Source: an uncultured Lachnospiraceae bacterium (GTDB taxonomy: Bacteria; Bacillota; Clostridia; Lachnospirales; Lachnospiraceae). From it: a stretch of 64,000 bases of DNA. Numbering within the stretch: position 1 is the first letter of the stretch; each line of letters starts with the position of its first letter. The notes below the pieces were generated by a model that worked only from the letters and a program-made list of their open reading frames with translations, was not told where the DNA came from and ran no database searches. Shown here in pieces: positions 26,518 through 42,387 of this stretch. The DNA lies in assembly GCA_947565425.1 (NCBI GenBank), contig CANOFW010000016.1, forward strand, positions 1 to 64,000, written 5' to 3'. Both the position numbers and the translations under genes were made by a program.

Positions 26518-27252
26518 ATGAGAAACAGCCGTTTGCGTGCAGCACAGGTAAATAATGTAGATAATGGAACAATGAAGATTCAGGTTACTTCTTCTGTGGG
26601 GCTGATTCCGGTACAGAATGCAAGCATCACAATTTCGTATTCAGGAGATCCGCAGAACACATTGGAACAGATTTCTACGAATGCGGAAGGGCAGTCGGAA
26701 GTTCTAACGTTAGCAGCGCCGCCGCTGGAATACAGTATGGAACCGGAACAGCCAGTCCAGCCTTATGCGGAATATAACTTGGTGGTGGAAGCGGAGGGCT
26801 ATCGCCCGGTGAGTATTGAAAATGTGGATGTGTTCTCAGGCGAATTGTCTCTGCAAGATGTGCGGATGGAGCCATTAGAAGTGTCCGAGGAAGAAAAAAA
26901 TATTGTTATTCCGGCAAATACCTTGTTTGGGAATTTTCCGCCTAAGATTGCAGAGGCAGAGATTAAGCCGGTGGATGAGAGTGGTGAAATTGTTCTCAGC
27001 CGCGTGGTGGTGCCGGAGTATGTAATTGTTCATGATGGAACGCCAGGGGACTCTACGGCCGGCGATTATTATGTGAGGTATAAGGATTATATTAAAAATG
27101 TGGCCTCCAGTGAGATTTATGCCACCTGGCCAGATAGTACGATTCGAGCAAATATCCTTGCAATTATGTCTTTTACCTTAAATCGAGTGTATACGGAGTG
27201 GTACCGGGATATACAGAAATTCTGGGTAGAATTGCAATCATGGAACATGTAG
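26518..27252 (+). pseudogene. sleC: 5' part of a SleC-type spore cortex-lytic gene, interrupted by a mobile element
   Basis: The first 230 codons (26518-27206) encode the N-terminal region of a SleC-type cortex-lytic protein: a beta-rich prodomain (VTSSVGLIPVQNASITISYS...), the VPEYVIVHDGTPGD segment and the block YIKNVASSEIYATWP ... FTLNRVYTEWYR. After the core GGTACCG the frame runs into element sequence for another 14 foreign residues (DIQKFWVELQSWNM) and stops at 27252. The 3' remainder lies at 41801-42387. SleC enzymes degrade spore cortex peptidoglycan during germination, so this interruption should abolish function unless the element excises. The ATG follows GAGG at 5 bases. Identification as SleC is from remembered family sequence. 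Confidence 0.8.
27200..27206 (+). other. attL core of the integrated element
   Basis: GGTACCG at the host-element boundary. Left of it is SleC coding sequence (GTGTATACGGAGT), right of it element sequence (GGATATACAGAAAT). It is identical to the core at 41801-41807. Confidence 0.8.
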
Positions 27253-27478
27253 TTCTGCCATACGTCAGCAGATGTAAAGGGATTGGATAAAGAATATAAA
27301 ATGGTATCAGGTATGGATGTCCTCTTTCTGGTGAGAAGCTGGAAGCAGGGCTTTTCTTTTTCCTGTTGTATTTCAGGCGATTGGGAGTTACAATAAATCT
27401 AAGAAAAGGCTGGAAATCCTTTGGAAACAGAGACATGATTTTGTATGGCAGGAGAAGAAAAGGAGTGATAAGTGGGAA

Positions 27479-28309
27479 ATGAGCGATAAGAAAAAATGGG
27501 AAGAATTAGGGATTGCCAATGATTTTCTGTTTGGGAAAATCATGAGGAATCCAGAACTATGCAAGGGGCTGCTGCAAAGGATTTTGCCGGATTTGGATAT
27601 TGACTATCTGGAATATCCGGAGACGCAGAAAAGCATACAAGAGGATATAGATGCCAGAAGCGTGCGTTTGGATGTTTATGTAAAAGATGGCAAAAATACA
27701 GTATATAATATAGAGATGCAGACGACAGACACAAGAGAACTGCCGAAAAGGACACGGTATTATCAGAGTATGATAGACTTACAGTTGATTGATAAAGGTG
27801 AAGCCTACAATAAACTCAGTAAAAGCTATATTATTTTTATCTGTCCGTTTGATGTGTTTGGCAAGGAGAGACATATTTACACATTTGAAAACAGGTGCAA
27901 AGAAGATACGAGCATTGTACTTGGGGACAATGCTATGAAGATTTTCTTAAATGCAAACGGTAAGATGAATGACGTCAACAAAGAACTAAAGGCGTTTCTG
28001 GACTATGTATCAGGGAAAAAACCAGATGATGCATTTGTAAAAGAGTTAGAAGAAGCTGTGAACGAAGCAAAGAAAAACAGAGAATGGAGACATGAATATA
28101 TGACGTTGTTAATGAGAGACCAGGAGAATCTGGAAAAGGGAATCGAGCAGGGAATCGAGCAGGGAATCGAGCAGGGAATAAAAAAGGGTATTCAAGGGCT
28201 GGTATCTGCCTTAAAAGATTTGAATATATCAGAGGAAGTAATAGTGCAGCAGCTGCAGGAAAAATTCATGCTTACAAAAGAAGAGGCAGAGAAATACCTA
28301 TATGGTTAA
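27479..28309 (+). CDS. Rpn-family PD-(D/E)xK nuclease / transposase-like protein
   Basis: This 276-residue protein belongs to the Rpn (recombination-promoting nuclease) / PDDEXK-transposase group. The N-terminus NDFLFGKIMRNPELCKGLLQ is the family opening. The nuclease core is RLDVYVKDGKNTVYNIEMQT, with Asp in LDVYV and the E-x-Q of NIEMQT as candidate metal ligands, followed by R.RYYQSMIDLQLI. The C-terminal part has a short repeat GIEQ-GIEQ-GIEQ-GIKKG (from a 12-base DNA tandem repeat), usual in this family and prone to slippage. These proteins cut DNA and are abundant, often multicopy, in gut Firmicutes. It is element cargo just inside the left end. Confidence 0.85.
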   Translation: MSDKKKWEELGIANDFLFGKIMRNPELCKGLLQRILPDLDIDYLEYPETQKSIQEDIDARSVRLDVYVKDGKNTVYNIEMQTTDTRELPKRTRYYQSMIDLQLIDKGEAYNKLSKSYIIFICPFDVFGKERHIYTFENRCKEDTSIVLGDNAMKIFLNANGKMNDVNKELKAFLDYVSGKKPDDAFVKELEEAVNEAKKNREWRHEYMTLLMRDQENLEKGIEQGIEQGIEQGIKKGIQGLVSALKDLNISEEVIVQQLQEKFMLTKEEAEKYLYG

Positions 28310-28602
28310 AATGAACGTCTTGCAGGAACAAAGTTTCGTACAGGCATGGTTTATGTAGGAAGCGGCACATCTGTTATTTATACACCAGCAAGACCAGATG
28401 TGATTGAGGGTATGATGGGAGAATGGTTTTCCTTTGCGGATACTTCTGCACTTAATGTATGGCTGACAGCAAGTAAGGACAATCAGCTTTCATTTTAAAT
28501 GTATCGCAACAAACTGCCGGGAGAATTTTGAATGAGCTGGTATCAATGGGATATTTGTCTAAGATTAAACGAGAACGAAAAAATATTTATATATTGTATT
28601 AA
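28310..28602 (+). pseudogene. Fic-family protein remnant
   Basis: The first reading frame gives LAGTKFRTGMVYVGSG followed by YTPARPDVIEGMMGEW, the N-terminal segment that precedes the Fic domain in Fic/DOC AMP-transferases. After a stop near 28496, a second frame gives VSQQTAGRILNELVSMGYLS and a basic tail, the winged-helix end of the same family. The whole Fic catalytic core (HxFx(D/E)GNGR) is missing. This is therefore an internally deleted relic directly downstream of the Rpn gene. Confidence 0.65.
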
Positions 28603-28632
28603 ATAAATGCTGCTGTGTATTAGAAGGCAGCG

Positions 28633-28672
28633 AAAACAGCCCTCTCCAGCGTTTGTACTGGAAGGGCTGTTT
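28633..28672. terminator. Bidirectional terminator hairpin
   Basis: AACAGCCCTCTCCAG (28635-28649) pairs, with one bulge, with CTGGAAGGGCTGTT (28658-28671). A-rich bases precede it and T-rich bases follow, so it can serve both the rightward Rpn/Fic transcript and the leftward methyltransferase gene that ends at 28698. Confidence 0.7.
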
Positions 28673-28697
28673 CAATGAGGGGGGATTTTAGTATTTA

Positions 28698-30053
28698 TCA
28701 ATATGCGGTAAAGTCCTTCAAATTGAGGTTTGTGGTGACTCTTTCAATAATGCCATGAGATTTATCGTATGTATAATCTAAGTAAAAGAAGCCTTTTCCA
28801 AGAAACAGTTCATCATATTTGCCCTGATAAATTTGATCACGAGGGGCGTAATCAATGCCAGCCTTTGTGTTTTGGCTTCGAGGCGCAGTAATGCGCCCGA
28901 AGTAGAAGAAAATCCCGCCTTTATCTGCATGTTTTTTCAGGAGCTTTGCCATTTGGATATGCTGTTCAAAAGAAAAGGCTTCATCATATTCAAGAGTGTC
29001 AAAATATGGAGGGTCGCAGATGAGGATGAGCTTAGGATTCCCTGCATGTGTTTTTAGTAGTTTTATTGCATCCATATTAGCAATTTCTATTTTTTTCAAG
29101 GCAGCAACTTCTTTTGCAATACAGTCAATTTTTTTGAAGAGACCAGTAGGATTTAAAGAATTGAGATTTTTACTGCCCGATTTATTTTGGGTTTTCCGCC
29201 TTTTTACTTCTTCAAGCATCAAAGAGATCCGTTCCTGTATATGTAGGCTGCCATCAGAGATTTCTGCAAAATCTTTAAGCTGTTTTTGGCTGGCCTTTAA
29301 TAAAACCTTATTTTGCTGAAGAAAAAACACCAGCGCACCAAGGAGCTTTGAAGCCTTATCAGGCTGCATAGCTTCCAGTGAGACAATGATGTTATTTTCT
29401 GATTTTTCCCTTTTTGCTTCTCCATCTGGGGAGGTAGCATAGTCCAGGTTTAATACGAGACATTTGAAGGTTACTGTATAATCCCGAATGGTCTGGAAAT
29501 AATCCAGATGGGTTGTGTCATAGTAGTTTGCGGTAATGCTTTTAAACAGGTTCAGGTCTGCAGTATTTTCCGAAAGGATGCCACTGCCCATGAATAGGTC
29601 TATGAAGTCGTTGTATTCGGGGAAGGTGTTTTTAATTTCCTGCATAAACTGGCAATGCCTGTCCAGATACCACTCCTTCCATCCCATATATGGAGAGGCA
29701 GGGATGATATATTCTGTCTGCTCTTGGCTGTAGTGTTCATCAAGATATTCCATTGCGCAAAGGGCAACAGTGACAGCCCGATTTAAGGAGCGTTCTCCTG
29801 TAAGGATTTTCAATGCCTGACGTTCAATCGGTGATAATCGGATGCTTCTCTTCTTACAGTCGAGGATTTCCCCGCCTTGTAATTGATGATACAGGGCGTT
29901 TTTAACTTTAAAGTTTTTTTCTCTCACGGAAAGACTTTTGCGCTGGACTGCTGTTGTAGCGATAAATCTCTTCAAAGTGTTCCGTAAGTTCTTTTTCTCA
30001 TGCCTTTCACTTAAGACAGTCGGTATTTTTACACAGGTTACATTTTTCTCCAT
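28698..30053 (-). CDS. Orphan DNA adenine-N6 methyltransferase (D12-like)
   Basis: This 451-residue protein has an N-terminal helical region of about 120 residues, then methyltransferase motifs in alpha-class order: a motif-X-like SPYMGWKEWYL (about 137-147), SAM-binding motif I FIDLFMGSG (about 166-174), a long variable region that would hold target recognition, and catalytic motif IV DPPYFD (about 350-355). DPPY indicates adenine-N6 methylation. No restriction endonuclease gene is adjacent. Such orphans in mobile elements can protect against host restriction or regulate the element. The ATG at 30051-30053 has GGAGG 8 bases upstream; a longer in-frame start lacks this. It reads opposite to most element genes. 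Confidence 0.75.
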   Translation of the reverse strand: MEKNVTCVKIPTVLSERHEKKNLRNTLKRFIATTAVQRKSLSVREKNFKVKNALYHQLQGGEILDCKKRSIRLSPIERQALKILTGERSLNRAVTVALCAMEYLDEHYSQEQTEYIIPASPYMGWKEWYLDRHCQFMQEIKNTFPEYNDFIDLFMGSGILSENTADLNLFKSITANYYDTTHLDYFQTIRDYTVTFKCLVLNLDYATSPDGEAKREKSENNIIVSLEAMQPDKASKLLGALVFFLQQNKVLLKASQKQLKDFAEISDGSLHIQERISLMLEEVKRRKTQNKSGSKNLNSLNPTGLFKKIDCIAKEVAALKKIEIANMDAIKLLKTHAGNPKLILICDPPYFDTLEYDEAFSFEQHIQMAKLLKKHADKGGIFFYFGRITAPRSQNTKAGIDYAPRDQIYQGKYDELFLGKGFFYLDYTYDKSHGIIERVTTNLNLKDFTAY

Positions 30054-30690
30054 TTTAATTACCTCCTGAGTTTTTGGAATAGTTTGAAATTCGCCCAAAA
30101 ATCAGATAAATGTAAAAGCTGATATTTTTGGCAAAAGTTCATAACTTCTATAAACTGCCTCAGTTGGAATCTTGAGAAATCATGTTACCTCAGACAATTT
30201 TTGGAAATCTTGCGCAGATTTTGTTATGTATAGATGTCGATTTTTATAAACGACAGAAGAACATATTTTGCATTAATGTGAAAAAATGAAACATCAAGTA
30301 AAAAGTTCTGCCTTGTGCCTGATTTTCTACACCACATATCTTAAGTTGTCATAAATGCAGGAATGAATTATCTGATATTTTATATAACATTCAGAAAATA
30401 AAACGTAGTATTTTTCGTGTGAAATAATGGGAAAAATGTAGTATTATTTTTGGAAGATAAATGGTACTGGAACTGTTGATTTGCAGTTGCCTGGTGGGGA
30501 AAGACAGGTTTATTTTGAAAGGCTTGCGGTAGGGATAGCATGGACTTTCATGAGGTATGCGGGCAGAACCTTATACGATACTGCCAGATGGGAATGGAAG
30601 GAAAAAGAAAAGGATAGAGTATGCAAGAAAAAAGATAATCGCAAGACTACAGCACAGGCAATTTATGAATAGAGAGGGATAAGGGTAATG
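30054..30690. other. A+T-rich gap with one doubtful ORF
   Basis: Between the methyltransferase start and the 91-bp tandem repeat lies mostly A+T-rich sequence. A frame ending at 30672 would encode about 63 residues (LQLPGGERQVYFERLAVGIA then a Lys-rich tail) but has no ribosome-binding site or ATG. It may be a decayed gene end. Nothing else recognised. Confidence 0.4.
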
Positions 30691-30696
30691 AAAATA

Positions 30697-30945
30697 GAGA
30701 AACACCAGCAAGAAATAAAATTTTAAAGATTCCCACAGAGGTAAAAAATAAGGAGAGAGAGGAATGGCTGATATAAAATCCCTTACAGAGAAGCGACAGC
30801 AAGAAGTGAAAATTACAAGATTCCCACAGAGATAAAAAATAAGGAGAGAGAGGAATGGCTGATATAAAATCCCTGATAGAGAAATACCAGCAAGAAATAA
30901 AATTTTAAAGATTCCCATAGAGATAAAATACATAGAGAGGGAGTA
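30697..30945 (+). repeat. 91-bp tandem repeat (about 2.7 copies) carrying repeated RBS-plus-start mini-ORFs
   Basis: Units start at about 30697, 30788 and 30879. Two units contain AAGGAGAGAGAGGA followed by ATG and MADIKSL: the first encodes MADIKSLTEKRQQEVKITRF plus three residues and stops, the second MADIKSLIEKYQQEIKF and stops. The block looks like a duplicated gene start (ribosome-binding site plus about 16 codons) without the rest of the gene. Confidence 0.7.
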
Positions 30946-31157
30946 GCAGTCAAAGGCAGATAAATCAGGAAATAAGTTTTATGGGGGTAGGGAGCAGTCT
31001 GTAATAGAGGGAATGTCTGTATAAAGGCAGTTTATTTCATCCGTAGGGGTGCTGCAGTTCCAGCAGTCAGGCAGACCCGCCCAATGCTGGCAGCAGCATA
31101 TCAGGTTACTTTTTTGGGTATGTTTGTCTGGAGCAATGGAAAGGGAGGAGTCTCCGC

Positions 31158-31331
31158 ATGGAAGATGGATTCTGCAATGGGGGTATCTACAGAGAAGAGG
31201 CTTACAGACCCGGAGACGCAGACCGAAAGAAACAGACAGGCATTAATATAAGGGAGGAACGGAATATTCCGGCAGACACGCCAGCCCAGACAGCCATAGC
31301 AGCCACAGTTATTTTACTGATTCTGTCCTGA
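31158..31331 (+). CDS. Small protein with C-terminal hydrophobic segment
   Basis: A 57-codon ORF begins at ATG 31158 with AGGGAGGAG seven bases upstream, a strong ribosome-binding site. The protein is hydrophilic (MEDGFCNGGIYREEAYRPGD...) until residue 45 and ends in AIAATVILLILS, a short hydrophobic tail that could anchor it in the membrane. No family recognised. It lies in the element between the tandem repeat and the next small gene. Its start overlaps one of the GGGGGTA motifs typical of this region. Confidence 0.4.
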   Translation: MEDGFCNGGIYREEAYRPGDADRKKQTGINIREERNIPADTPAQTAIAATVILLILS

Positions 31332-31687
31332 CGCCCCAACTCAAAAGGCAAGCCCCTTTCCCATCAATGCCATAAATCAGCAGGACAGGATTTTTCCATA
31401 TGAGAAAAGCCCTTTCATGCAGGAGATATGGCAAATCCAACCCATCCCAGAATTGGTTTTTAAAAGGTATCTGCCTGTGATTCTGTTATGGTTTGTGTCC
31501 GGCGGGTTCACCGCAATTTGACAGCCGCAGGGAACAAAGAAACTGCTGTAACTGTCAATGCACCGCCCAAAATAAACCAGACAGAAAAGTTCCTAAGGAT
31601 TTTTGCGAGTAGGTCTTGCCAGAAAAAAAGGCGGGAGTTATAATTGACAGCAACTTTAAAATTCCATGGAAGGGAAGGCGTTTGGTT

Positions 31688-31954
31688 ATGGATTTAAGCG
31701 GGGTACTGTCAGACAATGAATATTTGTATGTGCTGGCGGAAGTGAAGAGGCGTGAGGGCGGCAAGGCGGTTGACTTTGAGAGACTTCTGGCAAGCGGAAG
31801 TTATGAGATGGTAAGCAGGCTGGCGGCAGGTCATGAGGGCAGGGACACAATCATAATACCGCCATTTGGAAGCCATGATTTCCCACCTTATGAAGTGGCA
31901 CAGTTTTTCAGGAAGTATTACAAGGCGGGCGTTGGGTGTGGGGATGGCCTGTAA
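31688..31954 (+). CDS. Hypothetical element protein, 88 residues
   Basis: A soluble, mixed alpha/beta protein beginning MDLSGVLSDNEYLYVLAEVK and ending YYKAGVGCGDGL. There are no recognisable motifs, signal peptide or membrane helix. The ATG at 31688 follows GGAAGGGAAGG at 9 bases. An in-frame longer version from 31616 lacks a site. It precedes the DUF262 gene by about 250 bases on the same strand. Confidence 0.5.
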   Translation: MDLSGVLSDNEYLYVLAEVKRREGGKAVDFERLLASGSYEMVSRLAAGHEGRDTIIIPPFGSHDFPPYEVAQFFRKYYKAGVGCGDGL

Positions 31955-32148
31955 ACAGGGTAATGGGGGTAAAGATGATTTTTAAAACGCCGGAGGGAGG
32001 GGCTTTTGGGCGTGTATGGCGTTCAGGAGCCTTAATGGGGGTATTGCAAGCCCGCCGGGAGGCGGCATCCCGGCGCATAAAGAAAGCAGGGGTTTCCCAA
32101 GAAGAAAGGGAATTCCCTATTTTTTTCTGTGTTTTTTTGCAGAACCCC

Positions 32149-32179
32149 TTGACAAAACAGCCATCCAGAGTGATGAATA
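32149..32179 (+). promoter_or_regulatory. Possible promoter of the DUF262 gene
   Basis: A perfect TTGACA (32149-32154) is followed, after 17-19 bases, by a weak -10 (TGAATA, ending 32179), 30 bases before the DUF262 start. Confidence 0.45.
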
Positions 32180-32208
32180 GTGAAATTACCACAGATTGGA
32201 GGGCTGTT

Positions 32209-33375
32209 ATGCAAAAATCAACTTTACCGCAGGGGGTACGCAAGCTCAAAGCATGGGCAGAAAAAGGGGCATTGGCGTTTGACCTGCCGATACAGCGGGC
32301 TTCGGGGCAGTGGAGCCTGCTCCAGAAATCCCTGCTCATACATTCCATGCTGGCGGAGTACCCAATCCCGCCCCTGTATTTCATCAAGTGCAGGACGGAA
32401 GAAGGCGGGGCACAGTACCAGGCATTAGACGGAAAGCAGAGGTGCACCGGCATCTTTGAGTTCATTGACGGGGGGTATGCCTTACATGCCAGCACTCCGC
32501 CAGTCGCCATTGACGGTTTCACCTTTGACCTTGCGAACATGGGGTTTGAAGACCTGTCAGAAGAGTGCAGGGACGCAATCCTTGGCTTCCGCTTCACGAT
32601 TTATGCGCTGGAGGACGCCACAGACGGGGAAATTGAGGAAGCGTTCGCCCGCCTGAACGCCAGCACGCCCCTTACCCTGATACAGAAAGCGCGCACGGAG
32701 ATGGGCACGGAGCTTGCCGGGTGGACGAAGGAAATGACGCAGTACCCATTTTTTACTCAGGGGGTATCCCTGACGCTGGCGCAGGCAAGGCGCGAGAGCG
32801 AATTAGAAATCCTGCTCCAGAGCATGCTTTTAATGGACGCAAAGGACGAAGGCTACAATTATAAGGCAATCAGCATGGGCGAGGTCATGAAGTACTGCCG
32901 CGGCATACGGAATGGTTACACTGGCCAGAGGAAAAGCGTCATCCAATGCTGCGTGGAATACCTGTCAGACGCTTTCACGGAGAAGCACAGATTCCTTAAG
33001 AAATCCAATGCGCCGATGGCGTTCGTCATGGCGGACATGGCGATGGGGCAGGGGATACCGCCGGAAGGGTTCAGGGAATTCATAGATTACTTCGGGGAGC
33101 ATGTAAGCCCCGCCTATGAGGCGAACATGGGGAGCGGCAACATCAAGCGGGCAAAGACAGAAGGCAGGCTCCTTGCAATATATGATGGCATGAGGGAATA
33201 TTTCAATATCCCAGATGGGGCGGCTGGGTATCCAGTGTATGTCGGGGGACTGGCAGGGAGCCAGCCTGAGAAGGCGCAGGAAGCGGAAAAACAGGAAGAA
33301 AGCAACGTAGAAAGCGGCAGGGCGGAAGAAGGCAAACCAGAAGAAAGCCAGACAGCAGCGGAAAGGGATGGATAG
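32209..33375 (+). CDS. DUF262 (ParB/Srx-like) domain protein
   Basis: This 388-residue protein's N-terminal half is a DUF262 domain, the ParB/sulfiredoxin-like fold found in GmrS and other phage-defence proteins. Visible blocks are FDLPIQRASGQWSLLQKSLLI, then YPIPPLYFIK and the key QALDGKQR motif (about residues 67-74, DGxQR), which in related proteins forms a nucleotide- or nuclease-active site. The rest is helical. The last 50 residues are low-complexity Glu/Gln/Ala. It lacks the DUF1524 HNH nuclease half of a GmrSD-type enzyme. The ATG at 32209 follows GGAGGG; the frame stays open upstream without a better start. Possible jobs are defence, antirestriction or plasmid maintenance. Confidence 0.75.
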   Translation: MQKSTLPQGVRKLKAWAEKGALAFDLPIQRASGQWSLLQKSLLIHSMLAEYPIPPLYFIKCRTEEGGAQYQALDGKQRCTGIFEFIDGGYALHASTPPVAIDGFTFDLANMGFEDLSEECRDAILGFRFTIYALEDATDGEIEEAFARLNASTPLTLIQKARTEMGTELAGWTKEMTQYPFFTQGVSLTLAQARRESELEILLQSMLLMDAKDEGYNYKAISMGEVMKYCRGIRNGYTGQRKSVIQCCVEYLSDAFTEKHRFLKKSNAPMAFVMADMAMGQGIPPEGFREFIDYFGEHVSPAYEANMGSGNIKRAKTEGRLLAIYDGMREYFNIPDGAAGYPVYVGGLAGSQPEKAQEAEKQEESNVESGRAEEGKPEESQTAAERDG

Positions 33376-33511
33376 GCATGGGATTTGTTCCAATGCTGTA
33401 AGTGAGGGCAGGGCATGGCGGATATAGAAAACCAGGGGGAAGGAGCTGGCTGGTATGTGATGCATCTTCCCTGCCATGGGGGTATCAGGGCGGCTTCCCC
33501 GCCCAATGCCA

Positions 33512-33838
33512 TTACTGGCGCAGCCCGTCAATATAAGCGTCCAGCAGGGCTTGTTTCCTTTTGGAAAGGGTTCTGTACTTGTTGACCAGTTCATCTTCTT
33601 TTTCCGTCAGCCCGTCATTTTTCAGCGGGTACAGCTCAAAGTCAAAAAACTCCGGCAGTGTGATGTCCAGACCTTTGCAGATTTTCGCCAGAGTCCCCAC
33701 GGTGGGGCATGTCCTGCGGTGGATGATGTTGTTTAAGCTGGAATAAGGCAGTCCTGATTCTTTCGCCAGACGGTACATGGTATATTGCTTGGCATCGCAA
33801 AGACACTTAATGCGTTCAAAGACTTTATCCTCAATCAT
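33512..33838 (-). CDS. XRE-family regulator of the element
   Basis: This 108-residue protein has an N-terminal helix-turn-helix (YTMYRLAKESGLPYSSLNNI, then CPTVGTLAKICKGL at about residues 18-56). This Cro/C1 subtype reads TPxxxTLxKIcxgLxi in many Firmicute elements. A charged helical tail (TEKEDELVNKYRTLSKRKQ) probably dimerises. Its start at 33836-33838 has GAGGT upstream, and a TATAAT sequence lies in the gap. It converges with the DUF262 gene and is a candidate regulator of the element's plus-strand genes. Confidence 0.88.
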   Translation of the reverse strand: MIEDKVFERIKCLCDAKQYTMYRLAKESGLPYSSLNNIIHRRTCPTVGTLAKICKGLDITLPEFFDFELYPLKNDGLTEKEDELVNKYRTLSKRKQALLDAYIDGLRQ

Positions 33839-34128
33839 GAATATACCTCATTTCTGTCATATTGCTACCAGTATAATATGGATGAAAGGTAATTATTAGA
33901 TAATCAGTTGGGGCATAAACAAGAAATTAAATCATATATGAGTTACTTCGGCACACAAATTCCTTTACAAAGTGTAGGCGGCATGGTAAAATATGAGCGG
34001 AAGATTTTGAACACACAGACTGGTAAAAATCCAATAAATTCCGTAAAAAAGGGCATTGACGCCCATCCGAAAGAAGGACATAATCTTGAAGAGAAGAGAG
34101 CCAGTAGTATAGCATTTCCATGTAACAT

Positions 34129-34188
34129 AAAGCCCAGGCGGGCAAGGCAGAGTCTAAGGAAGCTGCCTTGCCTGTCTGGGCTTTTTTT
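34129..34188 (+). terminator. Strong intrinsic terminator in the element
   Basis: A 22-base arm beginning AAAGCCCAGGCGGGCAAGG (34129-34150) pairs almost perfectly with the arm ending CTGTCTGGGCTTT (34163-34184), and seven T follow. There is no clear plus-strand gene in the preceding 290 bases, so it may insulate the downstream surface-protein gene or end an unseen RNA. Confidence 0.75.
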
Positions 34189-34256
34189 GTTAAAAATTTC
34201 AGAGGAAGAAAGGGTGGAGGAACGTATGATAGTATATGATTTATTGTTGAGTTAAT

Positions 34257-34286
34257 TTGACAAATATAACTCAAAAGAGTTATAAT
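34257..34286 (+). promoter_or_regulatory. Promoter with embedded palindrome for the surface-protein gene
   Basis: TTGACA (34257-34262), an 18-base spacer and TATAAT (34281-34286) are followed by a 46-base leader. The spacer holds the perfect inverted repeat ATAACTC-AAAA-GAGTTAT, which overlaps the -10 and is a likely operator. Confidence 0.75.
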
Positions 34287-34332: not shown

Positions 34333-36258
34333 ATGAGAGACAGGAAAAGGTGGAAAGGGCTTGTTGCATTGGCAATGAGTGCGGCAATGCTGTTTTCCCA
34401 GACAGTGGCATATGCCCAAGAGGGGCAGCCTGTGGAACAGATGGAGGATACGGAACAGGCAGAAATAGTAGAACAAGCGGAGAGTCCTTGTGTATTTTAC
34501 GATTTGTATGCCAGAACGGAAAGTGGAAAACCGATGGATGGCATACAAATCCTTGTGGATTATTATGATTATTCTGGATATGGCGATGGCATAGCAAGGG
34601 TATATTACTATTCAAAAGAAGGTAACTTTAATAATGGAAATTATGATGGGGTCGATCAATCTGCTGGGTCGACATGGGCTTTGACTGAAGATGGGTATGC
34701 CAAACTGGAGTGGGAAGGAACATTAACAGATGGCACTATCTATCAGGGTTTTCCAAATAACCATTTGGGAGGTAATGTCTATGGTATCGAAGGCTATCGA
34801 GTCGATGGCTCACTGGTATATAAAGCAACGGAGGACATTACGGACAAAGTAACAGTAATGGACGGTGATAAGAAGATAGGGGATGTTCAGTTTCAAATCA
34901 AGGCAGCGAATGATTTTATCGCCAGTCCATTGCAGACGTTTGAATATCAGGTACAGAATCTGGCAGATGGCTGGGATATTACGGTAATGCCATCCTTTAC
35001 AACGTCATTCGTGTGCAATCCAATAACAGGGGAAGTTATGGAAGGTAATGGCGTAAGAGGCGAGGGCGGGCTGATTAGCATTACCGCAACCAGAAAGTCC
35101 GACGCAAGGCTGATTCCAGTTTCCTATGAGTTTGACGGTACGCAGGATTTGGTATTTAAGTATGACAATACATTGGCAGATGATATAAAAGAGGTGAAAG
35201 AAGTTCGTTTCGCTGTGCAGGACAATGTACAGCCTGCTGGGCCGGATTGGTTATATACTTTTTTGATAGACAATTATGGGGCAAGCTATACATATGACTT
35301 GGAAAAAGGGGAGGTTGTTCTTAAAAAAGATGCTGTATCTGCACTGGTATCTGAACACCCTGCAGTTGGCAATACCTATATCGGGCAGATGACTTATATT
35401 GCAAAAGATGGGACAGAAAAGACAGTCAATGGGGACTGGTATATAAAGGTTCTGGAGAAAGGTTCTGTAACAACAAAGCCCATTTCTGACTGCCAGATTA
35501 CCTTGGGCAGTACCTCTGTTACCTACAACGGAGCTGCCAAGACGCCATCCGTTACTGTAAAAGATGGAACTGACACTTTAAAATCAGGGACAGACTATAC
35601 AGTCACCTATGCGAACAACACCAACGCAGGGACAGCCAGGGTTACCGTCACAGGCAGGGGCAATTACACAGGCACAGTGACAAAGAACTTTACCATCCAG
35701 AAAGCCGACCAGAAGTTCAACTATACCAAATCCTACTCCAAGGCATATGGGAGCAAAGCATTTACACTGAATGCGAAACTGAAGGCTGGCAACGGCAAGC
35801 TGACCTACGCAACTTCCAATAAAAAGGTTGCAACTGTAAAGAATGGGAAGGTTACGGTAACCGGGACAGGGGCTGCGACCATAACGGTGAAAGCGGCAGG
35901 GACTGCCAATTATAACGCCGCAAGCGTTACGGTTACCATAAAGGCAAGCCCGGCGAAGCAGACTTTGAAATCCTTAAAGGCTGTAAAGGGCAGGAAGCTG
36001 ACCGTGACATGGAAGAAGGATACAAAGGCGACAGGCTACCAGATCCAGTACAGCACGGATAAGAACTTCAAAAAGGGGGTAAAGACAGCAACCGTCAGCA
36101 AGTATAAAACGGTGTCAAAAACAATCACGAAGCTGACAAAGGGAAAGAGATATTATGTGAGGGTGCGTTCCTATAAGAGTGCGAAGGTAAGCGGGAAGAC
36201 CCAGAAATTATATGGCGCATGGAGCGGCGCAAAAAGAAGCGGGGGCATAAAGAAATAA
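34333..36258 (+). CDS. Secreted multidomain surface protein with Ig-like and FN3 domains
   Basis: This 641-residue exported protein has a signal peptide at residues 1-29 (basic MRDRKRWKG, hydrophobic core, AYA cleavage site), then an acidic linker and a unique region of about 330 residues with Tyr-rich stretches. It is followed by an Ig/MBG-like module around SVTYNGAAKTPSVTVKDGTD (about 395-455), a Big2-like module with TYATSNKKVATVKNGKVTV (about 475-535), and a fibronectin type III module (about 540-635: GRKLTVTWKKDTKATGYQIQ). No LPxTG or membrane anchor is seen; the Lys-rich C-terminal part may bind the wall. It is probably an adhesin or carbohydrate-binding surface protein carried as cargo. 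AGGAGAATG lies before the ATG. Confidence 0.85.
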   Translation: MRDRKRWKGLVALAMSAAMLFSQTVAYAQEGQPVEQMEDTEQAEIVEQAESPCVFYDLYARTESGKPMDGIQILVDYYDYSGYGDGIARVYYYSKEGNFNNGNYDGVDQSAGSTWALTEDGYAKLEWEGTLTDGTIYQGFPNNHLGGNVYGIEGYRVDGSLVYKATEDITDKVTVMDGDKKIGDVQFQIKAANDFIASPLQTFEYQVQNLADGWDITVMPSFTTSFVCNPITGEVMEGNGVRGEGGLISITATRKSDARLIPVSYEFDGTQDLVFKYDNTLADDIKEVKEVRFAVQDNVQPAGPDWLYTFLIDNYGASYTYDLEKGEVVLKKDAVSALVSEHPAVGNTYIGQMTYIAKDGTEKTVNGDWYIKVLEKGSVTTKPISDCQITLGSTSVTYNGAAKTPSVTVKDGTDTLKSGTDYTVTYANNTNAGTARVTVTGRGNYTGTVTKNFTIQKADQKFNYTKSYSKAYGSKAFTLNAKLKAGNGKLTYATSNKKVATVKNGKVTVTGTGAATITVKAAGTANYNAASVTVTIKASPAKQTLKSLKAVKGRKLTVTWKKDTKATGYQIQYSTDKNFKKGVKTATVSKYKTVSKTITKLTKGKRYYVRVRSYKSAKVSGKTQKLYGAWSGAKRSGGIKK

Positions 36259-36521
36259 AACAGGGGGCAGGGCGGCATTTCCATATGGGGACGCTGCCCT
36301 TTCCCATGGGGGTATGCCAGCCCTGCCATCACCCGCCTTTCCTGCCAGTTTTGCCTGTTTCCGGGGATACAGAACCGACAAACATCCCCCTGCTTTCCCC
36401 CTGTATTTTTTGTGACATACGCACAAACATTCCAGGAACTGCAGATTCCCGCTTGATTTTTCCCTGAACCTGAGTGATAGATAGGACGTCAAAAAATATT
36501 GGGGATTTGGAGGAAACCTGT

Positions 36522-37055
36522 ATGAAAGTGATTGATTTGATTTATGAAAAGAAGAAGATGGAACACATGCTGTCACAGGGGAGCTATTTCGTCATGGAAC
36601 AGCCCGACAAAGAGAAGGAAGCGAGACAGGCGGGGAAAGCCCGGCAGAGGTATGAGGGCGACCAGAGGCTCCTGAAGAAGCTGGACGAAATAAACAACGC
36701 CCTCTGCGCGTCAGACGCCGCTGCATACGTTGAGGTGGAAGGGTGCCGCCTGAGCGTAGCCACCGCAAGGCTGTACCTGAGGGAGATAAACGGGGGCATG
36801 CTGGATATTGATGACGTATTTGACGGGGAAGGCATGGGCTTCAACCATTACAGCGGAAACCTCAGGGATTTGTTCCTGCAAAGGTGCGCAGGTGGCGGGA
36901 AGTCGACGTTCCTGCCAGAACCGAGGCGCATTGACCCAGCAGGGCTTTGCGACAGGCAGGAGGAGTTTGAGGCAAAGAAGCTGGACTGGGAGATAGGCCT
37001 GAAGAAAGCCATTGCCTTGTCAGACGCCACGACGGACGTGGATTTTATCATTTGA
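36522..37055 (+). CDS. Hypothetical element protein with helical N-terminus
   Basis: This 177-residue soluble protein begins MKVIDLIYEKKKMEHMLSQG and has a long charged helix to about residue 75. Then comes VEVEGCRLSVATARLYLREI and a DIDDVFDGEGMGF acidic segment, with a helical C-terminus ending DFII. No family recognised. GGAGG is 8 bases upstream of ATG 36522. It precedes another small helical gene and then the origin-like region, so a replication or maintenance role is possible by position only. Confidence 0.65.
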   Translation: MKVIDLIYEKKKMEHMLSQGSYFVMEQPDKEKEARQAGKARQRYEGDQRLLKKLDEINNALCASDAAAYVEVEGCRLSVATARLYLREINGGMLDIDDVFDGEGMGFNHYSGNLRDLFLQRCAGGGKSTFLPEPRRIDPAGLCDRQEEFEAKKLDWEIGLKKAIALSDATTDVDFII

Positions 37056-37132
37056 AGGAAGGATGGCAGTGTATGGCAGCGCCAGCACTGGACGAGCCCC
37101 TGATTTGCAGAGTGGGCTTCAAAGGAGGGAAG

Positions 37133-37393
37133 ATGGCAAGGAAAGCGGACATAATCAAGGAGAAGAAGGCGCAGATGGAGCGCATGATATCCCTGCTGGA
37201 AGCCGCATATGGGTGTGACCGTAAAGAGATGAAAGCGGCGTTCCAGAAATATGCACTGCTGGAGGAACCGTTGGAAGACGCAATGAGGAAGAACAGGGAA
37301 CAGTTTGTGCGGCTTTTCACGCCTGCCCTTGTCAACCTTGCGGATTATGACTGGGGACTGCGCCAGATGCTGGAAGAAAGGATAATAAAATAA
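37133..37393 (+). CDS. Small helical hypothetical element protein
   Basis: This 86-residue protein is highly charged and helical (MARKADIIKEKKAQMERMIS..., ending MLEERIIK). The ATG at 37133 follows AGGAGGG. A longer in-frame start at 37052 overlaps the preceding gene but has a poorer site. No family recognised. It is probably in one transcript with the upstream gene, ended by the terminator at 37407-37439, just before the iteron-like array. Confidence 0.6.
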   Translation: MARKADIIKEKKAQMERMISLLEAAYGCDRKEMKAAFQKYALLEEPLEDAMRKNREQFVRLFTPALVNLADYDWGLRQMLEERIIK

Positions 37394-37406
37394 CGCATGG
37401 GGAATG

Positions 37407-37439
37407 GGAGCCGCCCGTCAGGGGCAGGCTCCTGTTTTT
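37407..37439 (+). terminator. Intrinsic terminator after the small helical gene
   Basis: GGAGCC (37407-37412) with adjoining GCCC pairs with GGGGC plus GGCTCC (37421-37432), followed by a T-run. It separates the coding block from the origin-like region. Confidence 0.75.
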
Positions 37440-37592
37440 TTGTATGCCAGCTATAAAAAGGGGAGGCAGACGGGCACATCCCTGTATTTAACCTGTAAAA
37501 GTGGCATTTATGCGGTTTTGAAGCTGTATTTTGGGGCAGAACCGAGGGGTATTTATGGGGCTATGGAGTTTTCTCTGGCTGGATGAGGTGTC

Positions 37593-38050
37593 CTGAAAAC
37601 GTTTTCTGTTTTCTTTGGCTGTTTTGAGTGTGCTGAAATCGTCTTGATTAATCCTGCAATCGTCTGTGTATCCCTTATGCTGTCTTGCTGTTGCAATCGT
37701 TTCTGTATTTCTTGCAATCGTCATGAGGCATTCCTGAAATCGTTTAGATGATTCCCATATTGCTTTGAGGTATTTCTGAAACCGTCATGGGCAATCTTAC
37801 ATTGTCTGGATGTGGGACGGAATCCGTCTGTGTTATTCCCAGCATTGAAAGCAGTTTGCTGAAATTGTCCTGAGCATTCTTTGGATGAAGGAAGTTTGCT
37901 GAAATTGTCCTGAATGTTTTTGTGTTGAAAGACGTTTGCTGAAATTGTCCTGAATGTTTTTATACGGAATCAGGTTTGCTGAAACCATTTTAAATATTTT
38001 AATGTTGAACAAAGTTTACTGCAGTTGTCAGTGTTTCGCTGAAATGGGGT
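37593..38050 (+). repeat. Iteron-like array, about 14 CTGAAATYGTC motifs at ~20- or ~40-bp spacing
   Basis: Motif starts read by eye are 37593, 37633, 37654, 37691, 37712, 37734, 37776, 37818, 37859, 37899, 37939, 37979, 38019 and 38039. Spacings are 40-42 or 20-22, with one of 37. From 37859 to 38019 the period is exactly 40. The core consensus is CTGAAATYGTC, and the flanking bases of the last full units are also alike (GTTTG before, CTGAATGTTTTT after). The region is non-coding, all motifs lie on one strand, and multiples of about two helical turns fit cooperative protein binding, as at plasmid iterons or partition sites. Confidence 0.75.
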
Positions 38051-38399
38051 GTCAGGGGTAACTTTGCAGTCTGGAGGGGGATTGGAATAGAAGGGCAGGA
38101 ATCAGGGCAGATGCGTGTGCGGGGGTATGCAGGAAAAAGCTGACACTGGCGTTTCACCTGTATATCCCCCAAGCTGCCCTGAACCCATGCCGGGGGCGGC
38201 AGTGGCGCAGAAGGCGGCAGAGACGCCATTCCTGACGGTGGAAAAATTAAGACGGTAAAAATTACTCCAAAACCAGACGGCTGCGGGTAAAAAATATGGA
38301 CAGCGCATTTATAAACGCCGGAATCATGGGCAGTCTCTGGCACTGCCGGAAAAAACAGGGCGTTGGGGGAAAGACGTGGGAAGACCTGCATTATAATTT

Positions 38400-38408
38400 T
38401 TATCCACA
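38400..38408 (+). other. Perfect DnaA box beside A+T-rich sequence
   Basis: TTATCCACA, the exact consensus DnaA box, directly follows the A+T-rich run TTATAATTTT in an otherwise G+C-rich, gene-free stretch 350 bases after the iteron-like array. Together these make a candidate replication origin. Confidence 0.55.
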
Positions 38409-38772
38409 GTGGGGGTAAAGGATGTTTTGGCGCAGGGACTGTCGTGCAGCCTTTGGCGGTGCAGGGGCGTAAGGCAGGGCTGCATCATACAAACCCGACA
38501 AACCCCCTGCCTTAAATTTGTGACATTTAGCCGCTTACCAGCCCGCATATCCAGAGTTAAGATACAGCAGACGTCCGTAAAAGCCGCAGAAACTGCGGAA
38601 AATCAGCGGCGGCTCTGTATTTGCCGATTTCAGCCCTTTTTTATGCTTTATGGGGAATTGTCTGGCTGGCACTGGAAAAAGCCGACACAGGGCGAATTAC
38701 AGCCCCATTTCCCCCCGGACTGCAAATATCAGGGCTTTGGATGGGGAATCTGGCTCCCTGAAGCTGGCATCC

Positions 38773-38890
38773 GGCACAGTCCGTAATCCTATACATTTAC
38801 GGACTGTGCCAAAAGCTACAGGAACTGCGTCCGTAATCGTGCCAGTTTGGATTTTCGGACGTTCGCGGCAGGCACATAGGATTTACGGAC
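38773..38890 (+). promoter_or_regulatory. Three-subsite res-like region of the adjacent serine resolvase
   Basis: Subsite I is a perfect inverted repeat, GGCACAGTCCGTAA (38773-38786) and its complement (38797-38810). Subsite II (38829-38860) opens GTCCGTAATC and closes ATTTTCGGAC. Subsite III (38861-38890) opens with a degenerate GTTCGCGGC and closes ATTTACGGAC. Three sites of 30-38 bp immediately before a resolvase gene match the layout of Tn3-type res. The resolvase start is 36 bases downstream, so binding would also repress its own promoter. Confidence 0.7.
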
Positions 38891-38926
38891 TATTTTATAT
38901 AGTAAAAACAGGAAGGAGCGGTTTGT

Positions 38927-39544
38927 ATGTCAAGTAAAATATTTGGGTATGCAAGGGTGTCCACTGCCCGCCAGAAAGAGGACAGGCAGGTGGAGGCCCT
39001 CTTGGGGTATGGCGTTGACGGGCGCAACATCATCATTGACAAAGAAAGCGGGAAGAGCATGGACAGGCAGGGTTACCAGACTTTGAAGCGTTCACTCTTA
39101 AGGAGCGGGGACGTCCTTGTGGTAAAGGAGCTTGACAGGCTGTCCAGAAGGAAGGAGGACATCAGGTCAGAGCTGGAAGAATTAAAACAAGCGGGAGTCC
39201 GTGTAAAAATACTGGACATCCCCACGACCCTCACAGATTTCCCTGACGGTCAGGAATGGGTGATTGAAATGGTGAACAACATACTGATAGAAGTCATGGG
39301 CAGCATTGCACAGGAGGAACGCAATAAAATCCGCCAGAGGCAGCGGGAGGGCATCGCTTCGGCAAGGTCAAATGGCGTTGCATTTGGCAGACCGCAGATT
39401 GTGAAGCCAGAAAACTGGAGTGAAGTCATAGGGCGGGTGGAAAATGGGGAGATAACTTCCGTACAGGCAATGGAAATCCTCGGCATGAAGAAAACTTCCT
39501 ATTATAAACTTCGTAAACTGGACATGGAGCAGAGCAATATATGA
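38927..39544 (+). CDS. Small serine recombinase (resolvase/invertase family)
   Basis: This 205-residue site-specific recombinase has catalytic Ser12 in YARVST, then KELDRLSRRKEDI (the conserved Arg-rich active-site helix, LDRLxR), the long dimerisation helix with IAQEERNKIRQRQREGI, and a C-terminal helix-turn-helix (VENGEITSVQAMEILGMKKT SYYKLRK region). Size and domain order fit Tn3/plasmid resolvases rather than transposases. It probably resolves multimers or cointegrates of the circular element at the res-like region just upstream. AGGAAGGAG precedes the ATG. A separate large serine recombinase handles integration. Confidence 0.93.
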   Translation: MSSKIFGYARVSTARQKEDRQVEALLGYGVDGRNIIIDKESGKSMDRQGYQTLKRSLLRSGDVLVVKELDRLSRRKEDIRSELEELKQAGVRVKILDIPTTLTDFPDGQEWVIEMVNNILIEVMGSIAQEERNKIRQRQREGIASARSNGVAFGRPQIVKPENWSEVIGRVENGEITSVQAMEILGMKKTSYYKLRKLDMEQSNI

Positions 39545-39569
39545 CGCAGGAAAGGAGACGGGCATATTT

Positions 39570-39680
39570 ATGGAATTGATGAAAGGGAAGCAGAGGAACC
39601 CAGAAAGGATAAAGCCGATGCTGGAAAAGTTGGAAGAAGCGTGGGCATTAATGTATGGTTTTGGCAGGCTGTGTATTTAG
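39570..39680 (+). CDS. Possible truncated small conserved protein
   Basis: A 36-codon frame encodes MELMKGKQRNPERIKPMLEK then LEEAWALMYGFGRLCI. The core RNPERIKPxLExLxxxW resembles small conserved proteins of the form RDPxRIxPxLxxLxxxWxxxPDLRxGQ, but here the C-terminal half is altered and short. The nearest GGAG is 14 bases from the ATG, so translation is uncertain. It may be a relic. Confidence 0.3.
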   Translation: MELMKGKQRNPERIKPMLEKLEEAWALMYGFGRLCI

Positions 39681-39867
39681 AATTGGGGGTATCGGCAGAG
39701 CCTGAAAAGGCGGTGTGCAAAAAAAGTGGGTACGTGTGCGGTGCATAACTGATGAGACAGCCCATTTCAGAGCAAAGGCAGAAATTTTTTGACGAGAACT
39801 GAAAATTACGAGATTTTTTCTGAGGCAGAGTATTGCCTTCAAATAATTTTGAAGGAGGGACTCTGCC

Positions 39868-40125
39868 ATGAAACAGAAATTTATGACAAAGGGCCAGGCT
39901 GGTGTGCATACCAATAGTAAGGAAGAAACAACAGAGGTTATTTCAGCGATGCCGGAAATTCCTTGCCAGCGGGCAGTATCAGCTACAAAAGGAAACATGA
40001 AAATCACAATTACATATCCAGAGAAGGGAGATGCCGGAGAAGCGGAACTTGTAAAAGAAGTGCAGATGATGATGGAAACAATTATTATGCAACAGATAAA
40101 AGAAAGTAAGGGTGATGTAAAATGA
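39868..40125 (+). CDS. Small protein translationally coupled to the integrase; candidate directionality factor
   Basis: This 85-residue protein begins MKQKFMTKGQAGVHTNSKEE, has a central strand segment (MKITITYPEKG) and ends in a helix (EVQMMMETIIMQQIKESKG). GAAGGAGGGA gives a strong ribosome-binding site. Its stop overlaps the start of the large serine recombinase (ATGA). No family recognised. Small basic proteins coupled to large serine integrases are sometimes recombination directionality factors, so that role is possible here, but only position supports it. Confidence 0.65.
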   Translation: MKQKFMTKGQAGVHTNSKEETTEVISAMPEIPCQRAVSATKGNMKITITYPEKGDAGEAELVKEVQMMMETIIMQQIKESKGDVK

Positions 40126-41810
40126 GTAAAATGCAGAATGAATATATTGTCAGAATGTTATTAAGGGTTTCCACTAAGCAGCAGACAGATGCAGAAGGCG
40201 ACCTGCCGACTCAGCGGAATCTGGTGAGGGACTATATTGAAAAACAAGCAGGCTGGAAGTTAGATGAAGAGAAACCAGAGTATTTTGAAGGGGGTATCTC
40301 CGGGTTTAAGAACTCCGTGTCTGACCGTAAAGCGTTACAGGAAATATTAGAGGACGCCAAAAGTAGAGAATTCCATATTCTGGTGTGTTACAAGGATGAC
40401 AGGCTGGGCAGACGGGAAGATGAAATTCCGCAGTATATTAAGAAACTTGCGGAATATGGCGTGTTGGTATATACAGTAAAGGATGGTCGTATCACGCCGG
40501 AAACCCATGCGGACGATTTGCTGACTTATATCAGATACTGGCACGCCGAGGGAGCCAGCAGAGACACAGGCCTGCGGGTAAAGGATGCGGCGATAGAACT
40601 GGTAAAACAGGGAAGAAATCAAGGGGGTAATGCGCCTTTTGGCTATGAATTGGTTTATTCGGGAGAACTCAGCAAACACAAAAGGGCGTTAAAGAAGAAA
40701 GTAATTGTGCCACAGGCAGCAGAAGTTGTCCGCTTTATGTATGATTTGGCATTAAGCCATGGATACGGAGCCTATAAGATTACGAAACAACTGAACAAGG
40801 ATGAAGCGGTGCGCGCCATGTCTCCAAATGGAAAGGAATGGAAGGCTGTTACAGTCAGCGACATTTTGAAGAATCCCATATACACAGGGTATGAAGCATA
40901 TAACAGGCGCACCCATGAAGGGGAACATTATAAAAAACTGGACAGGGAACATTGGGTATTGTCTGAGGAACGTAAGGAAGAACTGGCAATTATCGACCTG
41001 GACACATGGGAAAAAGTGCAGAAAATACGGGAAAGCCGCAAAGAAAAGTATCAGGGGGAAAGAGAACAGGAAGAAAACGTGCCAACATGCACCACAGGCT
41101 CCCTTGCGCTACTGGACGTGGCATACTGCGGATGCTGTGGGCGCAAGTTGACCAACGGAAGCAAATATAATTACTGGCAAACTAAGGCAAAAGAAAAAAG
41201 AAGCAGCATTGTGCGATATTACCGCTGTCAGACAAAACATCAGGGAGGTTCCTGCACTGGAAAAGGTTCATACAGGGCAGACAGCGTAGAACCGATAGTT
41301 TTTGATTATATAAAAGACTATCTGGAATCCCTGGAGGATAATGGAACGGTTGTGGAAAAAATTAAGGAGACCGGCAAAAAGCAGAAACGCCAGAAAAAAG
41401 AGAAAATCCAGAAACTGGAACAGAGCCTGAAAGAAATCCAGAAGGATATTGACACGCTCAAAGGCAATCTGCCCAAAGTATTGAGAGGGGAAATGAAGCT
41501 CCCGCCAGAATTGTTCTATGAGCAGATTGAGGAAAAAGAACACAAAATGCAGCAGGCGCAGGAGGAACTAAAAGATTTAAAAGCGGTAAAAGAAAAGGAA
41601 AATCAGGAGGATTTAGAACTGGAGTATTTCCTTGCCCAGGTGCCAAAGTGGAGGGACGCTTTCGACCATGCGGAAGTCTCTGCAAAGAGAATGGTAATTG
41701 ATAAGCTGATAAGCAGGATTGACATAAAAGAAAATGAAATTTCCATTGAGTTCCGGGTAAATCTGGATGAATTTTTATCCCGAAAAACTATATACCAAAG
41801 GGTACCGTAA
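40122..41810 (+). CDS. Large serine recombinase (integrase) of the element
   Basis: This 562-residue protein has an N-terminal resolvase catalytic domain (Ser17 in MLLRVSTKQQTD; CYKDDRLGRREDEI), a recombinase domain (about 165-290: GNAPFGYELVYSG ... NPIYTGYEAYNRR), a zinc-ribbon (CGCCGRKL and YRCQTKHQGGSC, about 336-385) and a coiled-coil region (about 405-510). It should catalyse integration and excision at the GGTACCG core. Its stop codon TAA (41808-41810) lies in host DNA just past the core. In an excised circle the frame would continue 27 codons to a TAA at 27288-27290. The start overlaps the upstream small gene by 4 bases. Confidence 0.95.
   Translation: MSKMQNEYIVRMLLRVSTKQQTDAEGDLPTQRNLVRDYIEKQAGWKLDEEKPEYFEGGISGFKNSVSDRKALQEILEDAKSREFHILVCYKDDRLGRREDEIPQYIKKLAEYGVLVYTVKDGRITPETHADDLLTYIRYWHAEGASRDTGLRVKDAAIELVKQGRNQGGNAPFGYELVYSGELSKHKRALKKKVIVPQAAEVVRFMYDLALSHGYGAYKITKQLNKDEAVRAMSPNGKEWKAVTVSDILKNPIYTGYEAYNRRTHEGEHYKKLDREHWVLSEERKEELAIIDLDTWEKVQKIRESRKEKYQGEREQEENVPTCTTGSLALLDVAYCGCCGRKLTNGSKYNYWQTKAKEKRSSIVRYYRCQTKHQGGSCTGKGSYRADSVEPIVFDYIKDYLESLEDNGTVVEKIKETGKKQKRQKKEKIQKLEQSLKEIQKDIDTLKGNLPKVLRGEMKLPPELFYEQIEEKEHKMQQAQEELKDLKAVKEKENQEDLELEYFLAQVPKWRDAFDHAEVSAKRMVIDKLISRIDIKENEISIEFRVNLDEFLSRKTIYQRVP
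41801..41807 (+). other. attR core of the integrated element
   Basis: GGTACCG identical to the left core, lying at the very end of the recombinase reading frame. To its right is SleC coding sequence (TAACAAAGGCTATGATTTTAC). Confidence 0.8.
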
Positions 41811-42387
41811 CAAAGGCTATGATTTTACAATTACGTCTTCCACTGCGTACGACCATAAATGGGTTTATGGAAGAAATTATTTTAGCAGTATTTCTCGGGT
41901 CGTGGATGAGATGTTTACCAATTTCCTCTCAAGGCCAAACGTGCGCCAACCTATTCTCACGCAATATTGCGATGGGCAGCGGGTTACTTGCCCGAATTGG
42001 CTGAGCCAGTGGGGGTCCAAATATTTGGGAGATCAAAATTATTCGGCAATTCAGATACTGCGTTACTATTATGGAAGTGATATGTATATCAATGAGGCGG
42101 AGGAGATTTCTGGTATTCCTGCGTCTTGGCCGCGGGAAAATTTAACGATTGGCTCCAGCGGAGAGAAAGTACGGCAGATGCAGGAGCAGTTAAACCGAAT
42201 TGCAAGAGTATATACGTCCATTCCTCGAATCACTGCGGATGGTTCCTTTGGTCCGGCGACTGAGGAGGCGGTTCGTCAGTTCCAGTCTGTGTTCGGATTG
42301 CCTCAGACTGGGGTGGTCGATTATCCTACCTGGTATAAAATCTCAGAAATCTATGTGGGAGTGACCAGGATAGCAGAATTGAACTAA
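41801..42387 (+). pseudogene. sleC: 3' part of the interrupted SleC-type spore cortex-lytic gene
   Basis: From the core onward the sequence encodes YRNKGYDFTITSSTAYDHKW, then DQNYSAIQILRYYYG, and a C-terminal peptidoglycan-binding domain 1 (LTIGSSGEKVRQMQEQLNRI ... ADGSFGPATEEAVRQFQ ... TGVVDYPTWYKIS). It ends IAELN at 42387. In SleC-type enzymes this part holds the hydrolase core end and the wall-binding repeat. Joined at the core to codons 1-230 at 26518-27206 it makes a continuous 422-residue protein, close to the 440 or so of clostridial SleC. A terminator follows the stop. Confidence 0.82.

Follow-up and report, generated by a model that had tools for sequence, protein, structure and literature searches.

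Recombinase-bearing elements that split the spore cortex-lytic gene sleC in Lachnospiraceae and resemble skin and SPbeta in anatomy

A gene of the spore cortex-lytic SleC type is split in the window, the whole stretch of 64,000 nucleotides analysed here, by an element that carries a large serine recombinase (LSR). The locus raises the question of whether the gene has simply been inactivated by an integration or whether it is rebuilt during development by a skin-like switch, two readings between which the earlier note left the choice.

Structure of the split locus

The features of the locus are the following (coordinates, strand where one applies, description):

26518..27203, plus strand: sleC 5' part up to the crossover TA; relatives are intact across the joint
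27200..27206: attL core GGTACCG, with TA at 27202-27203
27204..41804: sleC-intervening element at site 1, 14,601 bp
27479..28309, plus strand: cargo, PD-(D/E)XK nuclease-family transposase (Pfam PF12784)
28698..30098, minus strand: cargo, D12-class DNA adenine methyltransferase-like (Pfam PF02086 barely above cut-off; PADLOC MTase_II weak)
31936..33375, plus strand: cargo, GmrSD_N-like protein (Pfam PF03235; PADLOC NsnA 2.8e-19)
34333..36258, plus strand: cargo, fibronectin-III-containing protein (Pfam fn3)
38927..39544, plus strand: cargo, small serine resolvase (Pfam Resolvase)
39868..40125, plus strand: small ORF overlapping the LSR start, candidate recombination directionality factor (RDF) from its position before the LSR
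40122..41810, plus strand: LSR (Pfam Resolvase, Recombinase, Zn_ribbon_recom)
41801..41807: attR core GGTACCG, with TA at 41803-41804
41803..42387, plus strand: sleC 3' part with the C-terminal peptidoglycan-binding domain
41995..42012, plus strand: second sleC attachment region (NWLSQW codons), uninterrupted in the window, occupied in relatives

The gene is cut between the codons TGG and TAC. The left half comprises 228 codons from the ATG at 26518 to TGG, its frame then reaching a stop at 27250-27252, and the right half 194 codons from the TAC at 41803. The GGTACCG repeat was found where the earlier note had placed it, and joining the halves at TA gave the open frame claimed there, 1269 bases encoding 422 residues and a stop. 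The proposed SleC identity was borne out by the intact sleC of genome G004 (L063), whose right half is 96% identical to that of the window and which matches the solved pre-pro-form of SleC (PDB 9h68, residues 12-421, E value 5.7e-127); in the Pfam scan PG_binding_1 scored above and SpoIID below the cut-off. A search for a second SleC gene returned only the one sleC match in the window's genome (G000, a 3.36-Mb, 93%-complete assembly), which also carries the sporulation marker SpoIVA and three matches to Hydrolase_2, a family that includes SleB/CwlJ. Uninterrupted orthologues with the same attB were found among relatives within the Lachnospiraceae: of 80 named sleC loci, 67 read through the joint without a stop, 12 are interrupted at it and one stays open up to a contig edge. 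The intact joint mostly reads WYRNKGY.

The Pfam domains of the LSR gene agree with the claim of a serine-recombinase element. In G000 this gene ends within the attachment site, its stop codon (41808-41810) being sleC sequence, and excision into a circle would lengthen its reading by 27 residues. Among seven G000 element proteins scanned, no phage structural family scored above the Pfam cut-off; the protein at 34333-36258 gave a sub-threshold match to T4 gp9/10. The GmrSD_N/NsnA-like protein (31936-33375) and the DNA methyltransferase (28698-30098) give the cargo a defence-like look.

TA lies at the identical host position on both sides in all 17 junction pairs read, and the stretch common to all junctions is GTA. 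TA is the likely central pair of the crossover, since GGTACC is a palindrome and elements occur in both orientations, those of G028, G015 and others being reversed. The attP arms of most elements share CCCGAAT / ATTC-like dyads. A natural empty site is provided by G017 (intact) and G028 (split), whose sleC halves show no differences and whose aligned flanks are 98.5-99.8% identical; because the two are nearly identical, one intact and one split, precise insertion or loss is seen directly. The points of likeness to skin present at the locus are thus a split germination gene, precise restoration of the frame and a recombinase encoded beside the attachment site.

No attP was found in G000's own assembly, and three attP patterns gave no match in viral contigs, where a first scan with the G000 LSR as the only query likewise returned no relative. 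In phage records, all of the 353 and of the 354 matching records were below 60% identity, the best among the matches listed being 30.5%.

Distribution, mobility and selection

The interrupted state, which the earlier note had suggested looking for in sister genomes, is present in many species. The window belongs to a genus of mouse-gut Lachnospiraceae that includes Petralouisia muris, Eubacterium sp. 14-2 and Lachnospiraceae bacterium A2. The sleC left half is present in all 29 genomes of this genus; the gene is split at the same codons in 14 and intact in 14 (G001, G002, G004, G005, G006, G009, G010, G012, G017, G020, G021, G022, G023 and G025), and G007, in which only a left piece is seen at a contig end, was dropped from the rows. 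The pieces flank an element of 4.1-14.6 kb on one contig in nine split genomes (G000, G003, G011, G013, G018, G024, G026, G027 and G028), four have the halves on two contigs running into element ends (G008, G014, G015 and G016), and G019, without a right half, was scored from its left end only. SpoIVA was found in 25 of the 29 genomes, including 13 of the 14 split ones.

The LSR (E up to 1e-60) was detected in 12 of the 29 genomes, in one place each and always at the sleC junction, and in none of the 14 intact ones; it was not found in G007, G008 and G019, all of which break at contig ends. The G018 LSR was recovered as two matches. In that genome (L145) the LSR has an internal extension and lacks its 3' end, and two further genes precede attR. 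In a sample of 397 Lachnospiraceae genomes, the LSR (E up to 1e-80) occurred in 12, each with a sleC piece nearby. The element is in reverse orientation at sleC in G255, G272 and G400, the piece lies about 1.1 kb from the LSR in G370, and G366 has an element of about 2.0 kb in a sleC relative whose identity to the two halves is 31% and 47%. Four of the 12 split loci among the 80 named ones lie outside the genus (L094, L097, L107 and L119); no LSR relative was found in the DNA examined at L094 and L119.

Elements at sleC vary in cargo as well as in orientation. The compared parts of the G000 and G014 elements (window 39868-41810 against L155 and L156 for the end alignment) aligned only at the LSR end (about 1.9 kb, 96%) and over the first 55 bp of the other end, as if the ends recombined around new cargo.

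With SpoIVA as the clock (gltB was set aside, being found in the stretch examined only for G000 of 12 genomes), the divergence of elements was compared with that of their hosts. The elements of G028 and G015 are 99.9-100% identical over the compared parts at a SpoIVA dS of 2.4, the LSR in the sleC of a third host (L228) is 100% identical to that of G015 over 562 residues, and the G000 and G014 LSR genes differ by a dS of 0.09 against 3.1 for SpoIVA. These values indicate that elements move horizontally and that the G000/G014 and G028/G015/L228 elements moved recently between species. On the sleC tree, the split and intact states need 10 changes (shuffled mean 9.7). Given this and the recent transfers, the split state appears labile in this genus, which argues against one ancestral switch there. 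Equal dS values (0.576 for the LSR; 0.58/0.57 for sleC) had suggested that the elements of G024 and G028 descend from one ancestor. This reading was dropped: G017 is intact although it equals G028 in sleC and in the SpoIVA stretch, and the elements of G028 and G015 are 99.9% identical.

Median dN/dS of the sleC left half was 0.049 in split pairs (13 usable) versus 0.042 in intact pairs (19), and that of the right half 0.023 (10 pairs) versus 0.020 (13 pairs), after pairs with dS outside 0.05-1.5 had been dropped and the G027 and G003 right halves left out. In eight trios, three of which (G018, G011 and G015) use an intact row other than a real sister, the non-synonymous and synonymous changed codons were 56/441 in split rows versus 44/414 in intact rows (p=0.46). 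Codon substitution thus indicates that selection on sleC is not relaxed in split genomes. Long decay is thereby excluded and recent silencing is not, as recent insertions could show no decay even with the gene off, the elements having moved recently.

Recombinase tail, small ORF and second attachment site

The LSRs at site 1 share 35-99% pairwise identity. The LSR reading frame of the commoner sub-family extends across attP: when the element ends are joined, it continues for about 32 more residues, a tail that shows the pattern R-LI-NELII---GK--Y--EY, so that integration also removes the LSR's own C-terminal tail. The tail is whole or nearly so in G011, G016, G008, G026, G028, G015 and G084, carries an insertion in G156, is partial in G013 and G018 and is degraded in G003, G027, G239 and G415; in G024 it is still encoded at the left end and the LSR now stops early. 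Synonymous changes in the tail outnumber amino-acid changes (pN 0.05 and pS 0.41 for G011-G016, most other pairs being near saturation). An LSR relative with an uninterrupted tail across an attP-like site, 63% identical to the G024 LSR and preceded by a small ORF, was found in IMG/VR on a phage-like contig (L231, a section of 145,752 bp in all that gave matches to tail-fibre, minor-tail, Dit and dUTPase). The G000/G014 LSR forms a second branch, 43% identical to the other and without the tail of about 32 residues. No serine-recombinase precedent for an attP inside the integrase gene was found in literature titles and abstract starts.

In each of the 17 elements compared, the LSR is preceded by a short ORF; these ORFs share the pattern ..NG-KV--EFP.....EVK-IL---L.., which is weak in G000, L107, L097 and G366. 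Three members scanned had no Pfam, NCBIfam or PHROGs match, and from its position and size the ORF is a candidate RDF. A candidate block resembling GAAT..GACAAGCT lies upstream of it in 10 of 14 commoner-type LSR loci, as counted with a loose pattern (up to 5 changes). The block reads TGTAACAAG in G003 and G027 and resembles the SpoIIID box, given as TGTAACAAT in an excerpt of PMC5025042; it falls inside coding sequence in some elements and is absent from G000. A search with sigma-E and sigma-K patterns gave one sigma-K-like match (G156) and none that was convincing, so that no sporulation promoter is established.

A second LSR family, 22-26% identical to the first, splits sleC about 68-70 codons beyond site 1, with elements of 2.05-2.6 kb in seven measured cases; the four measured at 2.4-2.6 kb hold one LSR and otherwise short ORFs. 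A sleC piece accompanies this LSR at 15 of 30 loci listed from 38 matching genomes (G357, G080, G076, G261, G109, G276, G279, G245, G216, G106, G304, G111, G307, G420 and G268), the other 15 having no piece within the flank. In 11 loci the piece has a sharp boundary at residues 66-71, and in four (G080, G261, G279 and G245) the boundary is less sharp. G049, from another family, provides a 3.6-kb case. The sleC genes of L228 and L229 are also cut at the second site. On the IMG/VR contig L229 an LSR at site 1 is followed by a sleC fragment and then, from site 2, by genes that look phage-like by eye, that is, two insertions in one gene.

In genus g84 six of nine species are affected and three intact. 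Small insertions with gaps of 2.05-2.4 kb occur in G420, G450, G451 and G452, G448 has only a right piece beside the LSR, and G111, with sleC pieces inside two contigs, is not a simple small insertion. Between G450 and G451, sleC has a dS of 0.94 and dN of 0.023 before the cut and a dS of 1.00 and dN of 0.036 after it (dN/dS about 0.02-0.04), and the LSR a dS of 0.94 and dN of 0.211. The equal dS agrees with an interrupted state that both species inherited from an ancestor, sleC remaining under selection; it could also be coincidence, and might mislead, because the similar G024-G028 match proved not to reflect common descent.

In G003 and G027 a further cut falls about 70 codons inside the sleC right half, and inverted arms are present at both ends. 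In these two genomes and in G111, chromosomal DNA stands between the pieces or the pieces are found within separate contigs (G003 and G111), so that simple excision would not mend the gene there. Over three pieces, the G003 and G027 genes differ by 5 non-synonymous and 67 synonymous changes (1 and 26 in the last piece). The DNA between two pieces in G027 (G027:C1:112950-174460; L150, L225, L226 and L151) measures 61.5 kb, and G003 is arranged likewise (L153 and L154), with att-like arms at both ends of the segment. A prophage reading of the G027 stretch was rejected: it is a chromosomal segment, since it holds gatB as well as gatC, gatA, a tRNA synthetase and clpX recognised by eye. gatB has one match per genome and lies about 39-49 kb upstream of sleC in G024, G028 and G013.

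Weighing the readings

The reading we favour, as probable but well short of certain, is a sleC-rebuilding system of the skin/SPbeta kind, with attB in sleC, integration by the LSR and excision in the mother cell at sporulation. sleC would be a dedicated chromosomal attB for a family of LSR elements, presumably phage-derived. The LSR would insert the element between the codons TGG and TAC by a crossover within GTA, probably at the TA pair, and this would account for elements in either orientation. Excision would restore sleC exactly; by analogy with skin, SPbeta, gin and yin, this most likely happens in the mother cell during sporulation, and the small element-encoded partner may act as the RDF that turns the LSR to excision. 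The elements, their sites, the strict association, the precise empty site, the mobility and the constraint on sleC are established here.

More tentatively, integration in the commoner sub-family could be a reciprocal swap that cuts both sleC and the LSR, a few host codons taking the place of the conserved tail of about 32 residues. With its tail, the LSR of the circle would act as an integrator; truncated and joined by the small partner, it would act as an excisor, and excision would mend sleC and the recombinase at once. The lineages that have lost the tail (G003, G027, G239 and G415) and the 2-kb second-site elements would then be domesticated developmental introns in sleC across Lachnospiraceae. 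In mycobacteriophage BPs, attP lies inside the repressor gene. Its integration-dependent immunity is alike in that an attachment site is tied to an element gene whose product is affected by integration (excerpt of PMC4557955); the gene affected there is the repressor and here the recombinase itself.

Plain gene-inactivating integration, in which sleC merely serves as attB for spread, excision happens seldom and without regulation, and lineages with the split gene lose SleC and give way to others, seems unlikely to us. It would account for the scattered, fast-changing distribution and the recent horizontal moves, for the distant pieces in G003, G027 and G111, and it could lean on the other cell-wall hydrolases of the genome (the three Hydrolase_2 matches). 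Half of the genus is split, however, as are six of nine g84 species, and the unrelaxed constraint on sleC, the G450-G451 dS match and the constraint kept on the G003 and G027 pieces speak against the reading. The skin-like switch offered by the earlier note is partly supported, its anatomy being borne out; against a conserved ancestral switch in this genus stand the 10 changes versus 9.7 and the recent transfers.

Excision and re-integration might instead be continuous and free of developmental control, some cells always having an intact sleC, enough for germination. The yin element of C. botulinum, excised and integrated at all times tested (excerpt of PMC10747680), lends weight to this, and the LSR tail, complete again only in the circle, points to an active cycle; we nevertheless hold such cycling to be unlikely, as no attP was found in the genome's own assembly and the C. 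difficile RDF restricts excision to the mother cell (excerpt of PMC5025042). An assembly artefact or chance repeat, for which one might point to the several metagenome assemblies, has practically no probability left. It is refuted because one and the same junction recurs across independent isolates and assemblies whose elements differ, G026 being a one-contig genome.

The favoured system has several relatives in the literature. The skin element in sigK (B. subtilis; skinCd in C. difficile) bears an LSR, splits a sporulation gene and restores it by precise excision, with an RDF, CD1234, separate from the LSR (excerpt of PMC5025042); its target is a sigma factor and that of the sleC element a germination enzyme. 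SPbeta in spsM is likewise a mobile, phage-related element in a spore-envelope gene (excerpt of PMC4191935), but it is an active prophage, whereas the site-1 sleC elements measured 2.0-14.6 kb. gin in gerE of B. cereus ATCC10987 resembles them as a non-phage element with several serine recombinases and restriction-modification cargo, and differs in its target gene, its size of 28.6 kb and the sporulation-specific excision shown there (excerpt of PMC5595907). yin interrupts yabG, a germination-linked gene whose C. difficile product processes pre-pro-SleC; it is described in the excerpt as unique to one strain (PMC10747680), unlike the sleC elements, which are widespread and use two LSR families. 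A search of open-access literature titles and abstract starts found no sleC-interrupting element.

Taken together, the sleC elements are a real, widespread and probably functional gene-intervening system with skin/SPbeta-like anatomy, whose developmental control is suggested by that likeness. If so, developmental gene rearrangement would extend to the enzyme chiefly responsible for germination in common gut anaerobes, and two families of recombinase would have converged on sleC. Natural replicas are numerous, ranging from 2.0 to 14.6 kb in both orientations and including very small forms, and would lend themselves to studying the origin of such switches. They also carry a warning, in that numerous sleC genes of gut bacteria will appear disrupted in their genomes while probably being functional.
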